Below, piece by piece: positions 4,906 to 53,442 of a stretch of 64,000 bases of DNA; within the stretch, counting starts at the first letter, position 1, and every line of letters begins with the position of its first letter. Position numbers and translations under genes: made by a program. The notes under the pieces were generated by a model that did no database searches, was not told where the DNA came from, and saw only the letters and a program-made list of their open reading frames with translations. Origin of the DNA: Vagococcus hydrophili (lineage in GTDB: Bacteria; Bacillota; Bacilli; Lactobacillales; Vagococcaceae); NCBI RefSeq assembly GCF_011304195.1, contig NZ_CP049887.1:2356001-2420000 (forward strand), read 5' to 3'.

Positions 4906-5952
4906 ATGTCTTTAAAAGAAACATTGGAACAATTAAAGAAAGAAACATTAACAAAAATTGAATCAACGCAAACGTTAGATCATTTGAATGACATCAGAGT
5001 TCAGATTTTAGGTAAAAAAGGCTCAATCACAGAAGTGTTAAGAGGAATGAAAGATTTAGATCCTGAAATGAGACCAATTGTTGGTGGATTTGCTAACGAG
5101 GTTCGTGATCATTTAACAGAAGAACTAGAACAAAAGAAAGTTGCTTTAGAAGCAGAAGCAATGAATGCTGCTCTTGAAAAAGAAACGATTGATATCACAT
5201 TACCTGGTCATGAATTCAAAACAGGAACACCTCACATTTTAACTCAAGTGATGGAAGAAATCGAAGACGTGTTCTTGGGATTAGGTTATGAAGTGATTGA
5301 AGGTTATGAAGTAGAGCAAGATCACTATAACTTTGAGCGTATGAATATTCCGCAAGATCACCCAGCTCGTGACATGCATGATACTTTCTATATTTCAGAG
5401 GATGTTTTACTTAGAACACACACGTCACCAGTTCAAGCAAGAACAATGGAAAAACATGATTTTTCAACTGGGCCACTTAGAATGATCAGTCCAGGAAAAG
5501 TGTTCCGCCGTGATAGTGATGATGCAACCCACAGTCACCAATTCCACCAAATTGAAGGTTTAGTGATTGATGAACATATTACAATGGGTGATTTAAAAGG
5601 CACGTTAGAAGTGTTACTTAAAAAATTATTTGGTGAAGAGCGTGAAATTCGTTTACGTCCAAGTTACTTCCCATTTACTGAGCCGTCAGTAGAGGTAGAT
5701 ATTAGCTGTTTCAAATGTGGCGGTAAAGGCTGTAACGTTTGTAAACAGACAGGTTGGATTGAAATCTTAGGTGCTGGTATCATCCATCCTAACGTACTAG
5801 AAATGTCAGGTATTGATTCAACTAAATTTAGTGGCTTTGCCTTTGGTTTAGGACCAGACCGTGTGGCAATGTTGAAATACGGCGTGAATGATATTCGTTA
5901 TTTCTATCAAAATGACTTACGATTCTTAGAACAATTCAAAGTAAAGGGGTAA
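4906..5952 (+). CDS. pheS: Phenylalanyl-tRNA synthetase alpha subunit
   Basis: Catalytic subunit of the alpha2-beta2 enzyme that charges tRNA-Phe. The 348-residue length is standard. An N-terminal coiled-coil (residues ~1-85) is followed by the class II aminoacylation core, with the motif 2 region [19 protein letters not shown] and the motif 3 region [13 protein letters not shown]. Start ATG has AGGATGGAG upstream. pheT follows after 4 bp, and expression is governed by the T-box leader. Confidence 0.98.
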
Positions 5953-5956
5953 AACA

Positions 5957-8374
5957 ATGTTAGTTTCTTATAAATGGTTAGAAAAATTAGTAGATTTAAA
6001 AGATATTACGCCAGAACAATTAGCAGATAAAATGTCTCGTTCTGGAATTGAAGTAGAAGATGTTGCCATTCCTCAAGAAGGACTTAAAAAAATCGTTGTA
6101 GGTGACGTGAAAGAATGTCGTCCTCATGGTGATAGCGATCATTTATCAGTGTGTCAAATCGATGTAGGTGAAGAAGAACTTTATCAAATCGTCTGCGGAG
6201 CTCCTAATATTCGTGCAGGTAAAAAAGTAATTGTTGCTTTACCAAATTCTCGTATTACTGGGAATGTTAAAATTAAAAAAGGTAAAATGCGTGGAGAAGT
6301 CTCTCTTGGAATGGTGTGTTCATTAGATGAGCTTGGTTATTCTAACAGTGTGGTACCAAAAGCGTATGCTGATGGAATTTATTTCTTACCAGATGATGCA
6401 ACACCAGGAGATGAAGTTTTCTCATACTTAGCAATGGATGATGCGATTGTTGAACTATCAATCACACCTAATAGAGCAGATGCTCTAAGTATGCGAGGGG
6501 TGGCTCATGAAGTGGCTGCTATTTACGATAGAAAAGTGACTTTCCCAACAAAAGAATTAGTTGAAGCAAGTGACGCTAATATCTCAGATTACGTATCAGT
6601 AGCGATTGAAAGCCAAGAAGATACACCAACTTATCGTATGCGTGTGATTAAAGATGTGGTGATTAAAGAAAGTCCAATGTGGTTACAAACATTATTAATG
6701 AATGAAGGTATTCGTCCAATTAATAATGTGGTCGATGTGACAAACTACGTGTTACTTTTATTCGGACAACCACAACATGCCTTTGACTATGACAAATTAG
6801 GAAGTAAAGAGATTAAAGTTCGCCGTGCTAATGATGGCGAAAAACTAGTAACTTTAGATGAAGAAGAAAGAGAATTAACTTCAGAAAACATCGTGATTAC
6901 AAATGGAAAAACCCCAATCGCTTTAGCTGGTGTTATGGGTGGTTTGGACTCTGAAATTACTGAAACAACGACAACTGTTGCTTTAGAAACAGCACTTTTT
7001 AACTCAACTTTAACACGTCGTACAGCTCGTGGATTTGGTTTAACAAGTGAGTCAAGCAAACGTTTTGAACGTGGCATCAATGTTTCAACGATGGAAGAAG
7101 CAAGTGCTTTTGCCGCTCAAATGATTGCTGAATTAAGCGGTGGTGTAGTAGTTACAGGTGAAGTTATTTCAAATGACTACACGAAAGAAGATGTGGTTGT
7201 TTCAATTACATTAGATAAAATTAACCGTTCATTAGGAACTGAGTTATCTCTAACTGATGTTCAAGGGATATTTGAAAGCTTAGGATTTGGTTCTGTTGAA
7301 GCAGCAGGAACATTTACAGTAAGTATTCCACCAAGACGTTGGGATATTTCAATCGAAGCAGATTTAGTAGAAGAAGTAGCACGTATTTTTGGTTATGATA
7401 ACTTACCTTCAACACTACCAAGTGGTTCATCTGTCGCTGGTAAATTATCAAGAAATCAAAAAGTTACAAGAGATGTTCGTCGTCAGTTAGAAGGAAATGG
7501 CTTAACTGAAGCGATTAGTTACATGTTAACAACACCTGAGTTGGCAACTAAATTTGTACTTGAACCAAAAAACGTGGTGGCATTAGACCTTCCGATGAGT
7601 GAAGAACGATCAACTGCTCGTCAAAGTTTAGTACCGGGATTATTGAAAAATGTGGCGTATAACCAAGCGCGTAAACATAACCAAGTTGCTTTTTATGAAA
7701 TCGGAAATATCTTTGAACAATTAGAAACAACAGGTTTACCAAAAGAAACAAAACACTTAAGCATGGCGTTATCTGGCACATGGTTTGGTAAAACTTGGGA
7801 CAGTCCAGCAACAACTGTTGATTTCTATACCTTAAAAGGAATCATAGAGAATTTATCTGAGTTACTTGGATTAGAGGCGGATCTTCTCTTTGTGGCATCT
7901 AAAGAGTATCAAGAAATGCATCCGGGACGTACTGCTGAAATCTTTGTGGGAGAAGATAAAGTTGGTTTCATGGGACAAGTTCATCCGGTATTTGCTAAAG
8001 AGATGGAAATCAATGAAACCTACGTTTGTGAGTTAGATTTAGAACATCTATGCGCGCTAGCAAAAGAAGAGCCAACATATAAAGAAGTAGGTAAATACCC
8101 TTCTATTAAACGTGACATCGCCCTTTTAGCTGATACAGCGGTAACGAGTCAACAAATTATCGATGTAATCCGTGGTAAAGGTGGTAAATTCTTAGTGGAT
8201 ATCCAATTATTTGATGTGTTTGAAAATGAAAAATTAGGACACAATAAAAAATCATTGGCTTATTCATTAATATTCAGAAATGACGAAGCAACCCTTGTTG
8301 ATGAAGACGTAACATCAGTGATGGAGAAAGTAAATACAGCTCTTTCTGAAGAATTAAGTATCGAAGTAAGATAG
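5957..8374 (+). CDS. pheT: Phenylalanyl-tRNA synthetase beta subunit
   Basis: Editing and tRNA-binding subunit, 805 residues, of standard length. In order: a tRNA-binding OB domain (residues ~40-150, VVGDVKECRPHGDSDHL), the B3/B4 editing domain (residues ~210-385, with TPNRADALSMRGVA just before it), B5 DNA-binding-like domain (~400-475), a degenerate class II core, and the ferredoxin-fold anticodon-binding domain at the C-terminus (YPSIKRDIALL). Translationally close to pheS, under the same T-box. Confidence 0.98.
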   Translation: MLVSYKWLEKLVDLKDITPEQLADKMSRSGIEVEDVAIPQEGLKKIVVGDVKECRPHGDSDHLSVCQIDVGEEELYQIVCGAPNIRAGKKVIVALPNSRITGNVKIKKGKMRGEVSLGMVCSLDELGYSNSVVPKAYADGIYFLPDDATPGDEVFSYLAMDDAIVELSITPNRADALSMRGVAHEVAAIYDRKVTFPTKELVEASDANISDYVSVAIESQEDTPTYRMRVIKDVVIKESPMWLQTLLMNEGIRPINNVVDVTNYVLLLFGQPQHAFDYDKLGSKEIKVRRANDGEKLVTLDEEERELTSENIVITNGKTPIALAGVMGGLDSEITETTTTVALETALFNSTLTRRTARGFGLTSESSKRFERGINVSTMEEASAFAAQMIAELSGGVVVTGEVISNDYTKEDVVVSITLDKINRSLGTELSLTDVQGIFESLGFGSVEAAGTFTVSIPPRRWDISIEADLVEEVARIFGYDNLPSTLPSGSSVAGKLSRNQKVTRDVRRQLEGNGLTEAISYMLTTPELATKFVLEPKNVVALDLPMSEERSTARQSLVPGLLKNVAYNQARKHNQVAFYEIGNIFEQLETTGLPKETKHLSMALSGTWFGKTWDSPATTVDFYTLKGIIENLSELLGLEADLLFVASKEYQEMHPGRTAEIFVGEDKVGFMGQVHPVFAKEMEINETYVCELDLEHLCALAKEEPTYKEVGKYPSIKRDIALLADTAVTSQQIIDVIRGKGGKFLVDIQLFDVFENEKLGHNKKSLAYSLIFRNDEATLVDEDVTSVMEKVNTALSEELSIEVR

Positions 8375-8408
8375 AAAATTAAAGGTTGTTACAGAAGTAG
8401 TAATGAAG

Positions 8409-8444
8409 TGAGGATGGCGACAAAAATGCCACCCTCTCTTTATT
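8409..8444 (+). terminator. Terminator after pheT
   Basis: GAGGATGGC / GCCACCCTC hairpin with one mismatch, followed by a T-rich tract. It lies 35 bp past the pheT stop and just upstream of the DAHP synthase RBS, so it could also act as an attenuator for that gene. Confidence 0.65.
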
Positions 8445-8467
8445 TACAAAAAAATGGAGGTTAAGTT

Positions 8468-9496
8468 ATGGGATTTGAATATATTAGTCAAGAAATTGAC
8501 AAAAAAGAGCTGTTAAAAAGTTATCGATTATCGGGAATTGATAAAAAAAGAAAAGCAGAACGAGATTTAGAATTAAAGAATATTTTATCAGGGAAAGACG
8601 ATCGATTGTTAGCTATTATTGGTCCCTGTTCTGCTCATGACGAAGAGGCAGTTTTGGAATACACTCATTTACTTAGCAAACTACAAGAAAAAATCGAGAA
8701 CGAAGTTTTTATTATTCCTCGAATCTATACGAACAAGCCAAGAACAAATGGGGATGGGTATAAAGGATTGTTACATCAACCGAGTGCCAATGGGAAAATA
8801 AATTTAGTGCAAGGGATTCAATCTGTTCGACAAATCCACCACCGTGTGTTAAGTGAAACAGGCTTAACAACAGCAGATGAGATGCTGTATCCTGAAAATT
8901 TAGAGTTTGTTGAAGATCTAATTAGTTATATTGCTGTAGGTGCACGATCTGTTGAAAACCAACAGCACCGTTTTGTGGCAAGTGGAAGTGATCAACCTGT
9001 GGGAATGAAAAATCCAACGAGTGGTCATTTAAGTGTGATGTTCAACTCGGTTTATGCAGCCCAACAATCACAAGAATTTATTTTTAACAATCAAGAAGTT
9101 AAAACAAGTTCTAATCCATATGCTCATGTTGTTTTAAGGGGTGGTTTGGATAGTTACGGGAAAAATATACCTAATTATCACTACGAAGATTTAGTAAAGG
9201 TTTCTGAGCAATACAAACAATCTGATTTAAAAAATCCTTTTGTAGTGATCGATACCAATCATGATAATTCAGGAAAACAGCATTTAGAACAAGTGAGAAT
9301 CGTCAATGAAGTGTTAGCTCACAGAGAGTGGAATCAAGAATTAAAACCACTTGTCAGAGGATTTATGATCGAGAGTTTCTTAGAAAATGGTCGAGCCGAA
9401 GTTGAGGAAGCATTGTTCGGACAATCCATCACAGATCCGTGCTTAGGTTGGCAAGAAACTGAAAAACTATTGTACAAATTAGCGAAGAATAAATAA
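8468..9496 (+). CDS. aroF: 3-deoxy-7-phosphoheptulonate (DAHP) synthase, class I
   Basis: First step of the shikimate pathway: condenses phosphoenolpyruvate and erythrose 4-phosphate. The 342-residue protein is the AroG/AroF/AroH type, with IIGPCSAHD (metal/PEP site), PRTNGDGYKGL, GARSVENQQHRFVASG, LRGG and DTNHDNSGKQ motifs all present. RBS is TGGAGG. The gene follows pheT after a hairpin; feedback sensitivity cannot be judged from the sequence. The later step gene aroD is also in this window, far away at 54.6 kb. Confidence 0.94.
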   Translation: MGFEYISQEIDKKELLKSYRLSGIDKKRKAERDLELKNILSGKDDRLLAIIGPCSAHDEEAVLEYTHLLSKLQEKIENEVFIIPRIYTNKPRTNGDGYKGLLHQPSANGKINLVQGIQSVRQIHHRVLSETGLTTADEMLYPENLEFVEDLISYIAVGARSVENQQHRFVASGSDQPVGMKNPTSGHLSVMFNSVYAAQQSQEFIFNNQEVKTSSNPYAHVVLRGGLDSYGKNIPNYHYEDLVKVSEQYKQSDLKNPFVVIDTNHDNSGKQHLEQVRIVNEVLAHREWNQELKPLVRGFMIESFLENGRAEVEEALFGQSITDPCLGWQETEKLLYKLAKNK

Positions 9497-32810: not shown

Positions 32811-33052
32811 AATAAATTCTCCTCTCGTGTGTAAATTTGCTTGAGAAAGGCATAAGATTTCATGGTAACAAAATTCCTATTTACAATTTATCATAGGTTT
32901 TTTTAAAAATCAAGTAATAAGACTATTATTTTCATGATTTTTTCATAAGTTTTTATTAAGATATAAAATGTGAAGCTTTCTGATAAAGTATGTTTAAGAA
33001 TTGTCAGAAACATAGTATACTAATAGATATTAAGCGAGGTTGGTGTGAGGAA

Positions 33053-33394
33053 ATGGTTTTTTATTTTGTCGGAATATTATTAACGGTAGTTGGGGTTATT
33101 TATTTGATTTTCCCTTCTAAAAACAGAATCAACAAATATGGGTATCGAACTCAAAGAGCAAAATTAAGTGAAGCAAGCTATACTTATGCTCAAAAAGTAG
33201 CAGGGAAAACTTTCTTTTTCATAGGAGCAATCACACTACTCATCGGATTAGTTCTGCGTTATTTCGGAATGATCCATTTATATATTATTGAAGTTCTATT
33301 AATCGGGGTTCCGATTATTGGTATTTTTTATAAAATTGAACTAGAGTTAGAAAAATTTCACGATAAACAAGAAGAGGACGTGGCGAGCAAATGA
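33053..33394 (+). CDS. SdpI-like membrane protein
   Basis: 113 residues with three hydrophobic segments (~2-20, ~52-70, ~76-94). Between the first two lies NKYGYRTQRAKLSEASYTYAQKVAGK, the hallmark of the SdpI C-terminal domain (B. subtilis SdpI gives immunity to the SdpC toxin and relays a signal to SdpR). A TATACT at 33016 is the likely -10, so an earlier in-frame start at 32990 is not used. It overlaps the response regulator gene by 4 bp. Confidence 0.85.
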   Translation: MVFYFVGILLTVVGVIYLIFPSKNRINKYGYRTQRAKLSEASYTYAQKVAGKTFFFIGAITLLIGLVLRYFGMIHLYIIEVLLIGVPIIGIFYKIELELEKFHDKQEEDVASK

Positions 33395-34113
33395 AATTAT
33401 TAATGGTAGAAGATAACGAATCCGTATCAGAAATGATGAAAATGTTTTTTTTAAATGAAGAATGGGATGTTAGTTTTAAATATGACGGTAAAGATGGTTT
33501 AGACGAATTTTTAACTGATCCTGAAGGTTGGGACATGATTACTTTAGATTTAAACTTACCAACAATGGATGGCGTAACGGTCTGTCGCGAAATTAGAAAA
33601 GTTTCATCAACTGTTCCGATTATCATGTTAACGGCGAGAGATTCAGAAAGTGATCAAGTTATTGGACTTGAGATGGGAGCAGATGACTATGTGACAAAAC
33701 CGTTTAGTCCTATTACATTAATTGCTCGTATTAAAGCTCTTCATCGTCGTGCAATTCTAACCGACGATTCAGAAAAAACAACGAATGATATTCAAGGTGA
33801 TTTTGATGTGGTTACTGATCATTTCAAAATGAATATCAAAACACGTGAAGCTTATTTAGATGATCAATTAGTTGATGGCTTAACACCAAAAGAATTTGAC
33901 TTATTATTAACATTAGCTAAAAAACCAAGACAAGTCTTTTCAAGAGAAAAATTATTAGAACTTGTTTGGGATTATCAATACTTTGGCGATGAGCGAACAG
34001 TGGATGCTCACATTAAAAAATTAAGACAAAAAATTGAAAAAGTTGGACCACAAGTGATTCAAACAGTTTGGGGCGTTGGCTACAAGTTTGATGATTCTGG
34101 GGTTGGTGAGTAA
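33391..34113 (+). CDS. OmpR-family response regulator
   Basis: 240 residues: receiver domain with the phosphoacceptor Asp53 in MITLDLNLP, Thr and Lys switch residues in IMLTARDSES and DDYVTKPFSP, then a C-terminal winged-helix DNA-binding domain (DGLTPKEFDLLLTLA ... VWGVGYKF). It overlaps the SdpI-like gene by ATGA and the kinase gene by one base, so the three proteins are co-produced. Target genes unknown. Confidence 0.95.
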   Translation: MKLLMVEDNESVSEMMKMFFLNEEWDVSFKYDGKDGLDEFLTDPEGWDMITLDLNLPTMDGVTVCREIRKVSSTVPIIMLTARDSESDQVIGLEMGADDYVTKPFSPITLIARIKALHRRAILTDDSEKTTNDIQGDFDVVTDHFKMNIKTREAYLDDQLVDGLTPKEFDLLLTLAKKPRQVFSREKLLELVWDYQYFGDERTVDAHIKKLRQKIEKVGPQVIQTVWGVGYKFDDSGVGE

Positions 34114-35561
34114 TGAGATACTTGCTACAACAAATGATTGCTTTTTTTGCGATTATTTTAACAGTTCTGATTATTTTTGGGGTGTCTTTTACCACGTTTA
34201 CTAAAAATACGGTGAAAGAAACAACCTATGATCAATTAGAAGGATATGCGACAACAGTTGTCCAAAATATGAGTAAGCAAGATTGGACGTTGCAACAATC
34301 ATTGAATACAGCCAGTGCGATTGTTGAAAATCAAAATATCGGCTTTTTTCTATTACAACCAAATCGAACAGCTGTTTATCCACCCTCCGCAAAAGGGCAT
34401 AGTGGGGATAATTTAATCTCAAATGATGAATTAAAGTTACTAAAAAAGGGTAAAAAAATTCAAAAAACAATTTCTAATGTGTCCCTAGGTACTGATGGGA
34501 AAAAAACAACAATGGCAGTTCATATTCAACCGTTGTTTAACAGTGATAATTTTGACTTTGAATACATTTTAATGGTTTGGCAACCAAGTAGTAATATAGA
34601 AGAAAGTGTTAGTTCTTTAACGCAAAACTTGTTTAAAGGCTTCATCATTTCAACGATTATTGCCTTGATTATTAGTTACATTTTAGCTAAATTCCAAGTG
34701 AATCGGATTAACCGAATGCGAAAAGCGACGAATCAGATTTCAGCTGGAAACTTTGATGTCCATTTAGAGGTGAAAAATAATGATGAACTCGATGATTTAG
34801 CGGAAGATTTTAATAAAATGGCTGGCGCTTTAAAGGATTCTCATACTGAAATTGAGCGACAAGAAGAACGCCGTCGAAACTTTATGGCAGATGTGGCTCA
34901 TGAAATGAGAACCCCGTTAACGACAATCAATGGGTTACTTGAAGGTTTAGCCTACAATGCCATACCAGCTAATCAACAAGATAAGTGTATTAACTTGATG
35001 CAAAATGAAACCAAACGTCTGATTCGTTTAGTTAATGAAAACTTAGATTATGAAAAAATATTAACGAATCAAATAAGCATTACGATTCAAAAATTAAATG
35101 CTACTGAGATTTTGGAGACATTATCCGAACAACTTAAAGGAAAAGCTGAGGATAAAAAGAATCAAATTATCCTTGAAACCTTAGAACCTGTGGAAGTCTA
35201 TGCTGATTACGACAGATTCGTTCAGATTATGGTCAATATAATCACCAATGCGATTCAGTTTACTGAAGAGGGCGAGATTAAAATTACCGTTTCAAGAGGT
35301 TATATGGAAACAACAGTCTCGATTGCTGATACAGGTATTGGTATGAGTGAGGAACAAGTTAAAAATGTTTGGGATAGATATTATAAAGCTGATCCATCTC
35401 GTAAAAATACAAAATACGGAGAATCGGGATTAGGGTTATCCATTGTGGATCAATTAGTGAAACTTCATGGTGGTTCAATTGATATTGAAAGTATTGTTGA
35501 CCAAGGAACAACCTTCCACATTAATTTTCCTGATAAAGTTGAGGAAGAAGTAGCAGAATAA
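34113..35561 (+). CDS. Sensor histidine kinase
   Basis: 482 residues. TM1 ~7-29, extracytoplasmic sensor domain ~30-170, TM2 ~177-197, HAMP ~198-250, HisKA with the phosphorylated His263 in DVAHEMRTPLTTI, then HATPase with the N box (IITNAIQF), G1 (ADTGIGM) and G2 (ESGLGLSI). All catalytic boxes are intact. Cognate regulator is directly upstream. The signal is unknown; the SdpI-like partner suggests a peptide or envelope cue. Confidence 0.95.
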   Translation: MRYLLQQMIAFFAIILTVLIIFGVSFTTFTKNTVKETTYDQLEGYATTVVQNMSKQDWTLQQSLNTASAIVENQNIGFFLLQPNRTAVYPPSAKGHSGDNLISNDELKLLKKGKKIQKTISNVSLGTDGKKTTMAVHIQPLFNSDNFDFEYILMVWQPSSNIEESVSSLTQNLFKGFIISTIIALIISYILAKFQVNRINRMRKATNQISAGNFDVHLEVKNNDELDDLAEDFNKMAGALKDSHTEIERQEERRRNFMADVAHEMRTPLTTINGLLEGLAYNAIPANQQDKCINLMQNETKRLIRLVNENLDYEKILTNQISITIQKLNATEILETLSEQLKGKAEDKKNQIILETLEPVEVYADYDRFVQIMVNIITNAIQFTEEGEIKITVSRGYMETTVSIADTGIGMSEEQVKNVWDRYYKADPSRKNTKYGESGLGLSIVDQLVKLHGGSIDIESIVDQGTTFHINFPDKVEEEVAE

Positions 35562-48942: not shown

Positions 48943-49575
48943 ATGGAAAAGAAAGTTAATAGTGGTATCAGTACAGGCTGGATTGTTTTCTTTTGTATTA
49001 TCTTTTGGCCGGTAGGGATTTTTCTAGTTTACCGGAAGATAGTAGGAAATAAAGAAGCTTTATATTATGATGGAAAAGGAATTTTTATCTCATCAATCAT
49101 CTTGATTTTATGCGCCATTGCAGGAATCTACGGAGCGTTTAATGAGGAAGAAACCATTGCCATTATTTTTACCGCTATTTTATGTTTTTTAGCACCTGGC
49201 GTACTGTTATTCTTAAAAGCCAGAACAATGAAGAAAAATAGTGAGAAATTTAAAAAGTACTCAGCGATGATTATTTATCAAAATGTAACGAAGATTTCTG
49301 ACATTTCAAGTGCTGTTGATTTACCAATGGATACTGTCAAAAGTGATATAGAGATGATGATCAAAAACAATTACTTCCCAAATTCTTACATGGATGAAAG
49401 TCGAATGGAGATTATTTTACCAAATCGACAAGTCAAAGAAGATGAAGCCTTTGCTAGAGAAAAAGCTCGTCATGCTCGCGTTGTTAAGTGTGAAGGTTGT
49501 GGAGCCGAACAAGAGATAGCAGAAGGTAATATAATGAAATGTGAGTATTGTGGCTCGCTTTTAGAAAATAATTAA
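48943..49575 (+). CDS. Membrane protein with winged-helix-like region and C-terminal zinc ribbon
   Basis: 210 residues. Three hydrophobic segments (~14-30, ~47-63, ~70-91) are followed by a soluble part with KYSAMIIYQNVTKISDIS and DLPMDTVKSDIEMMIKN, which looks like a PCI/winged-helix fold, and a C-terminal CEGC ... CEYC zinc ribbon (~183-206). Similar three-part proteins occur in lactic acid bacteria without assigned function. It follows the methyltransferase gene by 17 bp and ends at a bidirectional terminator. Confidence 0.7.
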   Translation: MEKKVNSGISTGWIVFFCIIFWPVGIFLVYRKIVGNKEALYYDGKGIFISSIILILCAIAGIYGAFNEEETIAIIFTAILCFLAPGVLLFLKARTMKKNSEKFKKYSAMIIYQNVTKISDISSAVDLPMDTVKSDIEMMIKNNYFPNSYMDESRMEIILPNRQVKEDEAFAREKARHARVVKCEGCGAEQEIAEGNIMKCEYCGSLLENN

Positions 49576-49624
49576 TAAAAAAAGCAATTGACATTTCAAA
49601 GGATGTCAATTGCTTTTTTTATTT
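49576..49624. terminator. Bidirectional terminator
   Basis: AAGCAATTGACAT pairs with ATGTCAATTGCTT, with A and T runs outside, between convergent genes. Confidence 0.88.
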
Positions 49625-50167
49625 AAAGAAGTGATCAATCATTAAGCATTGATCGTAGTAATTAGATTCTGCGACTTCTTTTGTGGGTGTAACAATCACT
49701 ACAGCGACTTTAGAAAGACGAGTAAACTTTTTTAAAAGTGGCATAAGATTCGTTAGAAAGACTGTGGATTCGTTAGCAGAGTCAAAAATAATAATATTCT
49801 GTTTTAGAGCAAGTGAACGAATAATCTGGTAAATCATTTGTTCTGTGTCATTTAATGAGTTTGCAGGTGACAAAAGGGTTTCTTTATCTAATTTAAAACT
49901 AACTAATATGGAATCAACTGTTTCCAAAAAGGCTTGTTTATTTTTCTTAGAAACACCTAACATGAGATTATCTTGTACAGAAAGAAAAGGAATCATATTA
50001 TTTTCCCGTCCCATTAAAGCATAATAATTATCTTGATTGCTTGTTTTGAAAAAGGTAGAAATATCATTTCGATGATTAGTATCAGTTGATTCAAGGATAA
50101 GCGATAATTTCTCTGAAAAATAATTAATAAAGATTTCTTCATTTTTTATTTTAGCTTCATGCATCAT
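49619..50167 (-). CDS. Degenerate ABC ATPase-like protein (no Walker A)
   Basis: 182 residues that keep the order and spacing of an ABC ATPase but not its catalytic residues. [17 protein letters not shown] (55-71) matches the segment after the Q-loop, with Arg54 in place of Gln. LNDTEQ (105-110) stands where LSGGQ is expected, and IIIFDS (125-130) keeps the Walker B Asp but has Ser for the catalytic Glu. VVIVTP puts Pro161 where the switch His should be. No GxxGxGKS/T exists. It overlaps the FtsX-like permease gene by ATGA, so the two are a pair. A regulatory or structural role, rather than transport, is inferred. Confidence 0.72.
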   Translation of the reverse strand: MMHEAKIKNEEIFINYFSEKLSLILESTDTNHRNDISTFFKTSNQDNYYALMGRENNMIPFLSVQDNLMLGVSKKNKQAFLETVDSILVSFKLDKETLLSPANSLNDTEQMIYQIIRSLALKQNIIIFDSANESTVFLTNLMPLLKKFTRLSKVAVVIVTPTKEVAESNYYDQCLMIDHFFK

Positions 50168-50970
50168 ACAGTTTGTGGCCTCCTATTAAGAAAGAGTGAA
50201 GTATAAGTGTAAAATCCTAGTAAGCAACCTAAGAGGCTTGTCAAACAGAGTTTAGCAAAGTTTGATAGGATTATTGAAAATGTTTTTCTAAATGAATTAC
50301 TACTAACGTGGAACTCGAAAAGGGTGGTCTCATTGTAAGGTGATAAACCACTTTTGACTGGTGTCGCAGGTCCGATAAAATCTTTTTTTGTTTTAGTCAC
50401 AGTTTTTTTTGAGGCTGAAACATCATTTGTCTCATGAATTGAAAGAAGTTCCTCCTCAAAGTAATTATTAACAACTTCTCGGTTAATATTAACTGAGCGA
50501 TTAATTAACTGATTTTGAAAAATTAAAAATAAGAGCATGACAAAAGATAGACTAACAATCATCGGTAACAAAAGATCCATTAAGAAATGCTTTAAAATAG
50601 TTCCTTGCTTAATACCAATATTTTGCATAGTATAAATCTCTTCTTTTCGGTGTTTAGCAATATAAATGCTGAGTAGGAAAAAGCCAATAACTGAGATTAA
50701 AAGTGTTGCAAGATAAAAGTTATTATAAACTGATGTAATGTATTGATGGCTATTTGTTAATTGCTCATTGAAATGTGTATTTGCTTGAGGAAGTATCGTT
50801 TTAAGATAGTCCCATTTTTTTAATATAAAAGTCATCATGGCTTCTTGTGAGTAGAGAAGCTGAGATATAAAAGTGAGTAAAAAAAGCAGTAGAGAAAATA
50901 CTAAGAAAAAGATAATAGATAGTTTCTTATGATATTTAGCTGCTTTATACGATTGTGTCAATGTTGTCAT
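50164..50970 (-). CDS. FtsX-like ABC permease
   Basis: About 268 residues with the four-helix FtsX layout: TM1 ~19-41, outer loop ~42-83, TM2 ~85-104, TM3 ~129-155, a large outer domain ~156-235, TM4 ~238-262. The cytosolic loop KHRKEEIYTMQNIGIKQGTI matches FtsX/MacB-type permeases. The ATG at 50970 has GGAGG at 8 bp; an ATG five codons earlier has none. Its only partner is the degenerate ATPase just downstream. Substrate or target unknown; it lies next to ltaS, behind a terminator. Confidence 0.78.
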   Translation of the reverse strand: MTTLTQSYKAAKYHKKLSIIFFLVFSLLLFLLTFISQLLYSQEAMMTFILKKWDYLKTILPQANTHFNEQLTNSHQYITSVYNNFYLATLLISVIGFFLLSIYIAKHRKEEIYTMQNIGIKQGTILKHFLMDLLLPMIVSLSFVMLLFLIFQNQLINRSVNINREVVNNYFEEELLSIHETNDVSASKKTVTKTKKDFIGPATPVKSGLSPYNETTLFEFHVSSNSFRKTFSIILSNFAKLCLTSLLGCLLGFYTYTSLFLNRRPQTV

Positions 50971-51033
50971 TCTCTCAACCTCCATAATAAAAATTATAGC
51001 TATTAGTTGTGAAAAATATATGAATAATCGAAA

Positions 51034-51070
51034 ATAAAAAAAAGACTTTAGTATAAAACTAAAGTCTTTT
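51034..51070 (-). terminator. Terminator after ltaS
   Basis: Stem AAAGACTTTAGT / ACTAAAGTCTTT; read on the minus strand it ends in a T run and separates ltaS from the permease gene. Confidence 0.8.
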
Positions 51071-51074
51071 CATC

Positions 51075-53222
51075 TTATTTCTTAGTTTCTGATGAAGAAC
51101 TACTACTTGTATCTGTTTTTGGTGCCCCATTGTATTCTTGGTAGGTCTTTGTCTCATATAAATTTTCTGTTGATTTATTACCATTTTTAGAATAAACACT
51201 GGTTGATTTCTTGCCTTTTTTCTCTTCAATCGCTTTTAACTTATCTAAACCATTTTTGTAATCATAATCTTCAGGTTTAACAGGTTCTAAGCCACTTTCA
51301 GTATAGAAACGAAGGAGATCTCCATTGGTTAACGCATCAGACATATTAAGCTGTGTACTTGCTTTATCTCTAATGACATCAATCTCACTTATTTGGTCAT
51401 CAGTCAGGTTACTTAATAATTCACCAGTTTCATTTAAGTAAACAGATTGGCCAATGATTGTGTACTTAGGTGTCACGATTGTTCCATTTCTAAAGGCGAC
51501 GATTTGATCTTTGTCTTTAGAGAACATATCTTGACCTAATTGAATGTATTTCGATGAATCAATTCCTAGTAAGTGAAGTAGGGTAGGTAGGATATCAATT
51601 TGTCCACCGTACGTTTCCATGACTTTACCATTGTTTTGTCCAGGAATATGATACATAACTGGAACACGTTGCATTTGAGCATCATCAAAGTCGTTCCAAT
51701 CATCTTTTGATTTACCGACTAATTCTGCTAAATATTTGTTTCTTGAATTTGAAATACCATAGTGATCTCCGTAAAGAACGATGATTGAGTTATCGTATAA
51801 ACCACTTTTCTTCAAGTAATTAAAGAACTCTTCAACGGCTGTATCTAAGTAGTTGGCTGTTGCAAAGTAACCATTAATTGTTGTATCAGGTGTTTTTGCA
51901 ATAGGGAAGCCAGCATTTTCATCTTTAAATTGAGAATATGGATAATGATTTGTTACCGCAATAAATTTAGAGTAGAACGGTTGTTGTAAGTGCTCTAAAT
52001 ATTTAACGGATTGTTCCATAAACGGTTTATCGTGTAAGCCGTATTGGAATGAATTCTTTTCATTAACGTCATAGTAACTAGCGTCAAAGAAGTAATCATA
52101 ACCTAAATGTTTATAGGTTTCGTTTCTGTTCCAGAAGGCACCACCATTACCGTGGAAGACAGCACTTGTATAGCCGGCTTCTTGGTTAAGAATAGCAGGA
52201 GCTGCTTGGAATGTGTTTTTATCACCTAACTGAGTGAATAAAGGACCTTGCCCTAAACCAAAGAATGAATTTTCTAACATTGTTTCAGCATCACTTGTTT
52301 TACCAGAACCAACTTGATGGAAGGCATTGTTAAAACTGTACGTTTCATTTGAGTGATAAATGCTATTTAAGAATGGTGTTACTTCATGCTCCACACCATT
52401 TTCATCTTTCAATTTATAATCAATTAAAAATTGTTGGAAACTTTCTAAATGGATATAAATGACGTTACGGTCTTTAGCAATCCCAAATGTTTCTTTGTTT
52501 GGTTTTGATTGATGCTCTTTAACATAGTTTTGAACATCAACTAAATCATTTTCACTAGCTTGAGCGCGTCTTTGATTGGCGTGATAGGTTTGAACGCCAT
52601 CATACACAGTAAAGACATTCATACCTAAATACTTAACAATATGATCACGTGAGAATGTTCTTTTTAGTAATTCTGGACGATCCATTTCAGCTAAAGTTAA
52701 GTTAGCCGCAAATAGAAAGACTGAGAAACTTGTAACAGCAAGTGCTGTTCTGGCTTTAATTGGACGATCATCTAACTTGATCACTTTAAAAGCAAGTAAA
52801 CCAATTAATACGACAATATCAATCCAATACAAGAAGTCATAAGGTCTGAACATGCGTAGAGCACTTTCTCCTAAACCAGATGATACTTTTCCTGCACCTA
52901 ACATCGTATTTACTGTAATGAAATCAGTAAACTCACGGTAATAGATGACGTTTGAGAATAATAACAGTGTCGTTAATGCTGATATGACAATTAACGCTGT
53001 ATAGGCTCTTTTTGAATTCTTAACATATAATGATGCCGAGAATAAAAAGATGGTTGTGGCAATTGGACTTAGGAAAAGAATGAAGTATTGAAAAGGACTT
53101 TCAATTCCTAAGTTAAAATCTACTAGGTATGCCATGATTGTTTTCGCCCATGTTAAAAATGCTAAGAGCGTGAAAAAACCTAACCTCGTATTCAGTAGAT
53201 TTTTATAGTAATTATGTTTCAC
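51075..53222 (-). CDS. ltaS: Lipoteichoic acid synthase family protein
   Basis: Polymerises glycerol phosphate from phosphatidylglycerol on the outer membrane face. About 715 residues: five transmembrane helices in the first ~200 residues, a helical linker, then an alkaline-phosphatase-like extracellular domain. The nucleophile Thr309 sits in GSGKTSDAETM; metal and substrate sites include HLESFQQF, FHGNGGAFWNRN and LYGDHYG. A Ser/Thr/Lys-rich tail ends the protein. The GTG start at 53222 has AAGGAAG at 7 bp; a TTG nine codons earlier is unlikely. Whether it is the main LtaS or a paralogue is open. Confidence 0.93.
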   Translation of the reverse strand: MKHNYYKNLLNTRLGFFTLLAFLTWAKTIMAYLVDFNLGIESPFQYFILFLSPIATTIFLFSASLYVKNSKRAYTALIVISALTTLLLFSNVIYYREFTDFITVNTMLGAGKVSSGLGESALRMFRPYDFLYWIDIVVLIGLLAFKVIKLDDRPIKARTALAVTSFSVFLFAANLTLAEMDRPELLKRTFSRDHIVKYLGMNVFTVYDGVQTYHANQRRAQASENDLVDVQNYVKEHQSKPNKETFGIAKDRNVIYIHLESFQQFLIDYKLKDENGVEHEVTPFLNSIYHSNETYSFNNAFHQVGSGKTSDAETMLENSFFGLGQGPLFTQLGDKNTFQAAPAILNQEAGYTSAVFHGNGGAFWNRNETYKHLGYDYFFDASYYDVNEKNSFQYGLHDKPFMEQSVKYLEHLQQPFYSKFIAVTNHYPYSQFKDENAGFPIAKTPDTTINGYFATANYLDTAVEEFFNYLKKSGLYDNSIIVLYGDHYGISNSRNKYLAELVGKSKDDWNDFDDAQMQRVPVMYHIPGQNNGKVMETYGGQIDILPTLLHLLGIDSSKYIQLGQDMFSKDKDQIVAFRNGTIVTPKYTIIGQSVYLNETGELLSNLTDDQISEIDVIRDKASTQLNMSDALTNGDLLRFYTESGLEPVKPEDYDYKNGLDKLKAIEEKKGKKSTSVYSKNGNKSTENLYETKTYQEYNGAPKTDTSSSSSSETKK

Positions 53223-53442
53223 ATTTAAACTTCCTTTCTTACATTCCAACCCTTAATTATTAAACTTGTAGTTATACTAAACATACTAACACATTTTACC
53301 TTTATCAAGAAAGGGTGTCAATTACAATAGGTGTCATTTAAAAAAAATTAAGACTTAAGTTGTAGTGAAAAAAGTGTGGAACGTAAGTGTTTAAACTGAT
53401 ATAGTAATAGATAGTAAAGAAAAATCAGAAAAGGGTATTTTT

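Follow-up and report, generated by a model that had tools for sequence, protein, structure and literature searches.

An ABC-fold protein without an ATP site is encoded together with an FtsX-domain membrane protein, often beside ltaS, in Lactobacillales

We describe a pair of genes in which an ABC-fold protein devoid of its ATP site (the pseudo-ATPase) is encoded together with an FtsX-domain membrane protein (the permease), usually behind the lipoteichoic acid synthase gene ltaS. Its components are of the MacB/FtsX type of ABC system; the novelty lies in a conserved family that has no ATP site. ABC systems are defined by ATP, and the lack of a P-loop in 100 of the 100 pairs that we read raises the question of the purpose of an ABC fold unable to burn ATP. 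The explanation that we prefer, and consider rather likely, is that the two proteins form a pseudo-ABC complex independent of ATP, with the dead ATPase as a docking or stabilising subunit. In this view, a former transporter would have become a scaffold or regulator in the membrane that no longer transports. Nothing was found on this gene pair in an open-access library without most subscription papers, where the literature was judged by title and start of the abstract.

The window that we analyzed is a stretch of 64,000 nucleotides of the genome of Vagococcus hydrophili (contig NZ_CP049887.1, positions 2,356,001 to 2,420,000). It carries ltaS at 51075..53249, identified by its open reading frame and a Sulfatase domain match, followed directly downstream by the genes of the permease (50164..50985, 273 aa) and of the pseudo-ATPase (49619..50167, 182 aa), all three on the minus strand. 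At E<=1e-20, the ltaS product matches only itself in this genome. The original prediction had described two frames overlapping by 4 bp, one of them coding for a four-helix FtsX-type permease. Both frames are present and share positions 50164-50167, and the permease scores above the gathering cut-off of the Pfam FtsX domain (PF02687; 34.6 bits for a cut-off of 25.5, E 2.3e-8). Its start may be ATG 50985 or ATG 50970, where the prediction had ended it, and the evidence is compatible with both. A promoter-like site lies 5' of the pair (TTCACA-18-TATTAT, 50984..51013, minus strand, 10/12 consensus matches); this is a consensus match only, and the region has 13 such sites for 8.3 expected. Two terminator-like hairpins, also on the minus strand and consensus matches only, separate ltaS from the pair (51039..51071) and follow the pseudo-ATPase gene on its 3' side (49575..49622). 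Convergent with the pair, positions 48943-49575 of the plus strand encode a 210-aa protein with hydrophobic N-terminal stretches and a C-terminal zinc-ribbon-like motif of four cysteines, which has no Pfam or NCBIfam family above the cut-off. A Pfam Tetraspanin match of a neighbouring frame scored under the cut-off and was set aside.

Taken alone, the 182-aa protein remains below the cut-off of the ABC_tran family (PF00005; 16 bits for a cut-off of 25, E 0.02). A profile of 19 relatives, searched against the PDB, matches MJ0796 (1.8e-10) and BceA (5e-10), as well as PsdA, YtrE, FtsE, LolD, and MacB; the top 18 matches begin only at profile positions 31-48, i.e., approximately from the Q-loop onward. 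Structure prediction, which had been proposed as a check on the ABC fold, does return one: the AF2 model of the pseudo-ATPase (29 sequences) has a pLDDT of 83.9 and a pTM of 0.82. Foldseek matched this model to 390 PDB chains at E<=0.001, and the best 50 of the 390 are ABC ATPases or complexes containing them (TMq 0.52-0.69 over these 50), with BceA on top. With the profile of 19 relatives and the predicted fold, the assignment of the protein to the ABC ATPases becomes firm.

The ATP site is a different matter. In the AF2 model, the N-terminus is too short to form the ABC beta subdomain. The strand preceding Walker A is retained (predicted at residues 21-25) and leads into ESTDTNHR, which replaces GxxxxGK[ST]. 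The former P-loop of the model thus has no glycine and no lysine, and the helix that follows it (33-42) is retained. Further along, the alignment to canonical ATPases places R54 at the Q-loop glutamine, LNDTE (105-109) at the LSGGQ signature, whose glycines are gone, S130 at the catalytic glutamate behind Walker B (IIIFD, 125-129), and P161 at the switch histidine of the H-loop. The original prediction had named the same losses (Walker A, Q-loop glutamine, signature, catalytic glutamate, and switch histidine), and the alignment agrees with it on each of them. Judging from the sequence, it is close to certain that the pseudo-ATPase would be unable to use ATP in the ABC manner.

The 100 pairs come each from a different species-level genome and represent four families of one order. 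They comprise all 92 pairs returned by a search with the permease profile and 8 from a profile search of family f3; genomes G409 and G428 were left out. A first search, using the window's own permease and ATPase as queries, had already turned up this two-gene unit in relatives. Of 395 genomes sampled across the order, 92 have a full-length relative in the permease-profile search (f1 16, f3 58, f2 9, f9 9), a count that includes the rows at E<=7.1e-25, the next row being at 9e-17. From named records, f1 includes Vagococcus, and f3 includes Enterococcus and Tetragenococcus; we take these families to be Vagococcaceae and Enterococcaceae, respectively. The profile searches per family matched 16/29 genomes of f1, the family of the window, and 65/105 of f3, with no match in 13/29 and 40/105 genomes, respectively. 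Hence, the pair is dispensable, as it is absent from part of the genomes of both families. A class-wide sample gave matches in 5 of 398 genomes, all in f1 and f3 and none beyond the order; this sample is thin and missed f2 and f9 too.

Neither Walker A nor any GK[ST] motif is found in the 100 pseudo-ATPases, and the whole open frames of the ATPase-like genes have no Walker A either (0/100). The original prediction had called for a homologue search on this point, and with an intact Walker A in none of the 100 relatives the loss is not local. The absence is no artefact of querying with a dead ATPase, since the search was based on the permease and all 92 pairs that it returned were read: had an equally high-scoring permease stood beside a live ATPase, it would have shown up. 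The permeases of three Walker-A-positive pairs (L287, L288, and L292) score weaker, at 9.8e-15 at best. We also considered a Walker A hidden upstream of the frame; this is excluded by the overlap with the permease frame (53/100 loci) or a gap of at most 148 bp, together with the whole frames without Walker A. A small tree was built from 45 pseudo-ATPases, out of a set of 94 members, and from the 9 canonical ATPases that remained from 26 once near-copies had been removed; in it, the pseudo-ATPases split from the canonical ones without exception (support 0.988).

The genes of the pair lie on one strand in 100/100 loci, with a median gap of -4 bp and a largest gap of 148 bp, and the two frames overlap in 53/100. 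Hence, pseudo-ATPase and FtsX-domain genes have an operon-like arrangement in all 100 pairs. ltaS is within the fetched stretch in 94/100 loci, and in 88/100 it is upstream of the pair, on the same strand and at most 1 kb away. In the other 6 of the 94, it overlaps the pair by 146 bp (L142, a matter of start choice), is 1.7-2.1 kb off (L143, L282, and L303), or lies on the opposite strand (L279 and L280). The original prediction had asked whether all relatives stay next to ltaS; most, not all, of them do. Of 80 ltaS loci from named records, 28 carry both genes, 10 carry just the permease, and 42 carry neither; in 4 of the latter, the sequence stops at most 410 bp past ltaS. In Vagococcus proximus (L177, 8178-10740), ltaS is followed directly by rlmD- and dgkB-like genes (by eye), i.e., the locus resembles that of the window without the pair. 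The pair of E. faecalis would be EF1262 and EF1263, judging from the gene numbering between EF1260 and EF1264, two names that appear in excerpts of PMC6522849, PMC10952268, and PMC5740357.

The permease profile also matches MacB (E 6.5e-4) and FtsX (E 2.8e-3). The AF2 model of the permease (34 sequences, pLDDT 81.3) has helices at residues 3-64, 70-112, 114-122, 127-155, 157-176, and 231-266. They correspond to a long TM1 and TM2, a coupling helix (114-122), TM3, and, beyond a loop at 179-214 (pLDDT mostly under 50), TM4. Among the PDB matches of this model, FtsX chains rank first (8tzj_C, E 0.051, prob 0.98) and third (8idb_D), but every match has an E of 0.001 or above, and the scores of designed helix bundles are close to those of the FtsX chains.

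The coupling segment is the cytosolic site where an ABC ATPase would dock. From the AF2 model and the alignment, codons 100-140 of the window's permease (50566..50688, minus strand) cover the end of TM2, the predicted coupling helix, and the start of TM3. This span has 41 residues in 99 of the 100 paired permeases and 40 in the other one, in three MAFFT modes, and the glycine at position 124 is retained in 96/100. For comparison, it has 30-34 residues in 10 of 11 unpaired permeases, i.e., it is 7-11 residues shorter. The exception is L309, where the segment has its full length.

These unpaired permeases come from 11 loci without an ATPase-like frame. In the E. avium group, the E. sulfureus-type genomes, and E. 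nangangensis, the permease is still behind ltaS, and examination of the locus revealed no ATPase-like frame after it. The 10 shortened segments come from these three (7, 2, and 1, respectively) and represent few independent events; a p-value calculated without regard to this is given no weight here. The homology of the permease is good in the E. avium group (hhalign 96%, E 3e-9) and weaker in the E. sulfureus type (40%, E 3e-4, 136 columns), and the assignments in E. malodoratus (E 1e-3) and E. nangangensis (9e-5) rely on position as well. As for L309 (genome G279, permease-profile E 3.8e-15), its full-length segment looks like the result of a recent loss of the pseudo-ATPase. This locus has the permease only, at 6105-6800, and the full pair is found in a genus-mate (L291, 288-1459). 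The persistence of the permease after the loss of the ATPase in several enterococci suggests that it is probably the functional core of the pair and needs no power stroke. These enterococci provide a natural test, where the docking segment tends to vanish with the partner.

In the ATP-independent complex that we favor, the pseudo-ATPase would dock on the cytosolic coupling helix of the permease, a proposal made because this segment is shortened in loci that have lost the ATPase-like gene. Once docked, it might steady or gate the four-helix protein from the inside, without a power stroke, as a structural or regulatory subunit. The permease, in turn, may assist lipoteichoic acid (LTA) synthesis or the response to envelope stress at the locus; judging from its position, it might work with LtaS, or else with the envelope-stress two-component system often found nearby. 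The original prediction had imagined a scaffold or a nucleotide-free regulator, possibly of teichoic acid synthesis. The scaffold gains support from the shortening of the docking site in 10 of the 11 loci that have just the permease. The link with teichoic acids is one of position only (88/100). If the link with LtaS is true, the pair is an unstudied factor at the locus that builds a main Gram-positive surface polymer. One can tentatively go further, to a scenario that we hold as possible but doubtful, in which an entire lineage of ABC systems dispensed with ATP. In the ancestor of several Lactobacillales families, the nucleotide site of an FtsX/MacB-type pair beside ltaS would have been lost, and the dead ATPase would long have been kept as the docking subunit of a membrane protein governing LTA synthesis. 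Some enterococci would then have shed the ATPase and the docking helix, resulting in a stand-alone LtaS regulator. If so, we are dealing with a family of ABC pseudo-transporters whose stages of conversion are preserved in living species.

Alternatively, though we regard this as unlikely, the pair might be the sensor module of the neighbouring BsrXRS/ChtRS-like two-component system, in which the dead ATPase would signal what state the membrane protein is in. BceAB works with BceRS and is found together with a two-component system, and the rank of BceA as the top fold match of the pseudo-ATPase fits this idea. So does the neighbourhood: a response regulator with 60% identity or more to the one in the window, together with a kinase, occurs in the fetched stretch of 74/93 pair loci and 9/10 permease-only loci, against 2/42 named ltaS loci without permease (including the 4 that stop within 410 bp of ltaS), and 5 of the 6 loci added later have two-component genes by a looser test. 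The BsrXRS-like genes are thus associated with the pair by neighbourhood. However, the loci are related by descent, so this neighbourhood may simply be inherited. In the window, the genes of a small membrane protein, a response regulator, and a histidine kinase of BsrXRS/ChtRS-like type (32990..35561, plus strand) are 14 kb from the pair, and in the gene maps where two-component genes adjoin the pair, they are oriented towards it, not alongside. The exact BsrR box, as given in an excerpt of PMC6522849, lies upstream of 37/74 two-component operons (0.1 expected from shuffles), yet upstream of 0/100 permeases and 0/77 ltaS genes. Allowing one mismatch, the counts are 48/74, 1/100, and 2/77, for 2.6, 2.0, and 1.6 expected, and the window has 17 boxes with up to 2 mismatches for 21 expected, none of them exact. 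These counts lend no support to a control of the pair by BsrR through the published box.

The small protein might also form an asymmetric dimer with a separate, active ABC ATPase whose gene is located elsewhere, so that ATP hydrolysis still drives the permease. There is ample precedent for asymmetric ABC dimers in which one site is degenerate, and some residues of the signature and around the H-loop are often kept in the family alignment: the signature leucine and S/T in 70 and 72 of 79 members, and, around the lost histidine, the threonine (T160) in 60/79 and the aspartate (D162) in 54/78, with a histidine at column 161 in just 10/79. Nevertheless, we consider this improbable, since the signature glycines and the Q-loop glutamine are gone, the short N-terminal part leaves no room for the ABC beta subdomain, and none of the 100 loci has a canonical ABC ATPase frame within 3 kb of the pair. 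The kept polar positions at 160 and 162, with D or E at 129 in 56/79 members, could instead belong to a pocket that now takes another ligand (a nucleotide, a lipid, or a phosphate compound), which would make the protein a ligand-gated regulator and not a plain scaffold. The odds of this are very small in our view, as the former P-loop region is highly variable in sequence across the family, unlike a binding site.

Local decay, i.e., a dying ABC transporter without its motor, is scarcely credible: the L156 copy, whose ATPase-like frame has just 116 aa, may be decaying, the pair is absent from some Vagococcus, and the ATPase-like gene is absent from some enterococci, but the same loss in 100/100 pairs of four families, with open frames and dN/dS well below 1, rules out a local pseudogene. 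Over 25 close pairs, the ATPase-like gene has a median dN/dS (NG86) of 0.075 and the permease one of 0.127; these pairs were drawn from 94 members, are 75-99.5% identical with dS under 1.2, and are not independent as members recur. Hence, within these close pairs, purifying selection seems to act on both genes, and the initial impression that simple decay was not the obvious reading was sound. Between the window and L040, identity is 73% for the ATPase (with saturated dS), 78% for the permease, and 96% for LtaS, so the pair evolves far faster than LtaS. The LtaS of the window is 95-96% identical to that of Vagococcus fluvialis bH819. A mirror-tree comparison of ATPase and permease distances beyond those of LtaS gave a weak signal (partial 0.14, 94 loci), and we dropped it as evidence.

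How does the proposed ATP-independent complex compare with known ABC systems? The original prediction had likened the pair to FtsEX, and this holds for the FtsX domain, the four TM helices, and the operon with an ABC-fold protein. In contrast to FtsEX, TM1 and TM2 of the permease model are not linked by a large extracellular domain, since helices 3-64 and 70-112 are joined at 65-69; the pseudo-ATPase has no ATP-binding motifs, which are intact in FtsE; and the adjacent gene is ltaS. The pair is thus similar to true FtsEX only to a limited extent. Among the MacB-like ABC systems are BceAB/PsdAB, YtrEF, MacB, and LolCDE. The pseudo-ATPase profile matches BceA, PsdA, YtrE, LolD, and MacB, and the permease profile matches MacB and FtsX. 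Unlike these systems, the permease has about 220-290 aa and four helices, and the pseudo-ATPase about 150-210 aa and no P-loop. CFTR, TAP, and heterodimeric exporters are ABC transporters with one degenerate nucleotide site and another that is active. They share with the pseudo-ATPase an ABC domain with lost catalytic residues, but the latter is the sole ATPase-like gene at its ltaS locus and lacks any P-loop.

The nearest canonical ATPases, chosen among the 26 found in the fetched stretches, are those of L287, L288, L292, and L058 (E 7e-22 to 1e-18), which belong to FtsX-permease/ABC pairs from the same taxonomic order. Unlike the pseudo-ATPases, they have an intact Walker A and [LI]SGG[QE], there is no ltaS in the fetched stretch, and they fall outside the pseudo-ATPase clade (split support 0.988). 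Three of these Walker-A-positive pairs are at 6947-8684 (L287), 5449-7196 (L288), and 5780-7994 (L292), and those of L287 and L288 have beside them a gene resembling, by eye, a TetR-type regulator.
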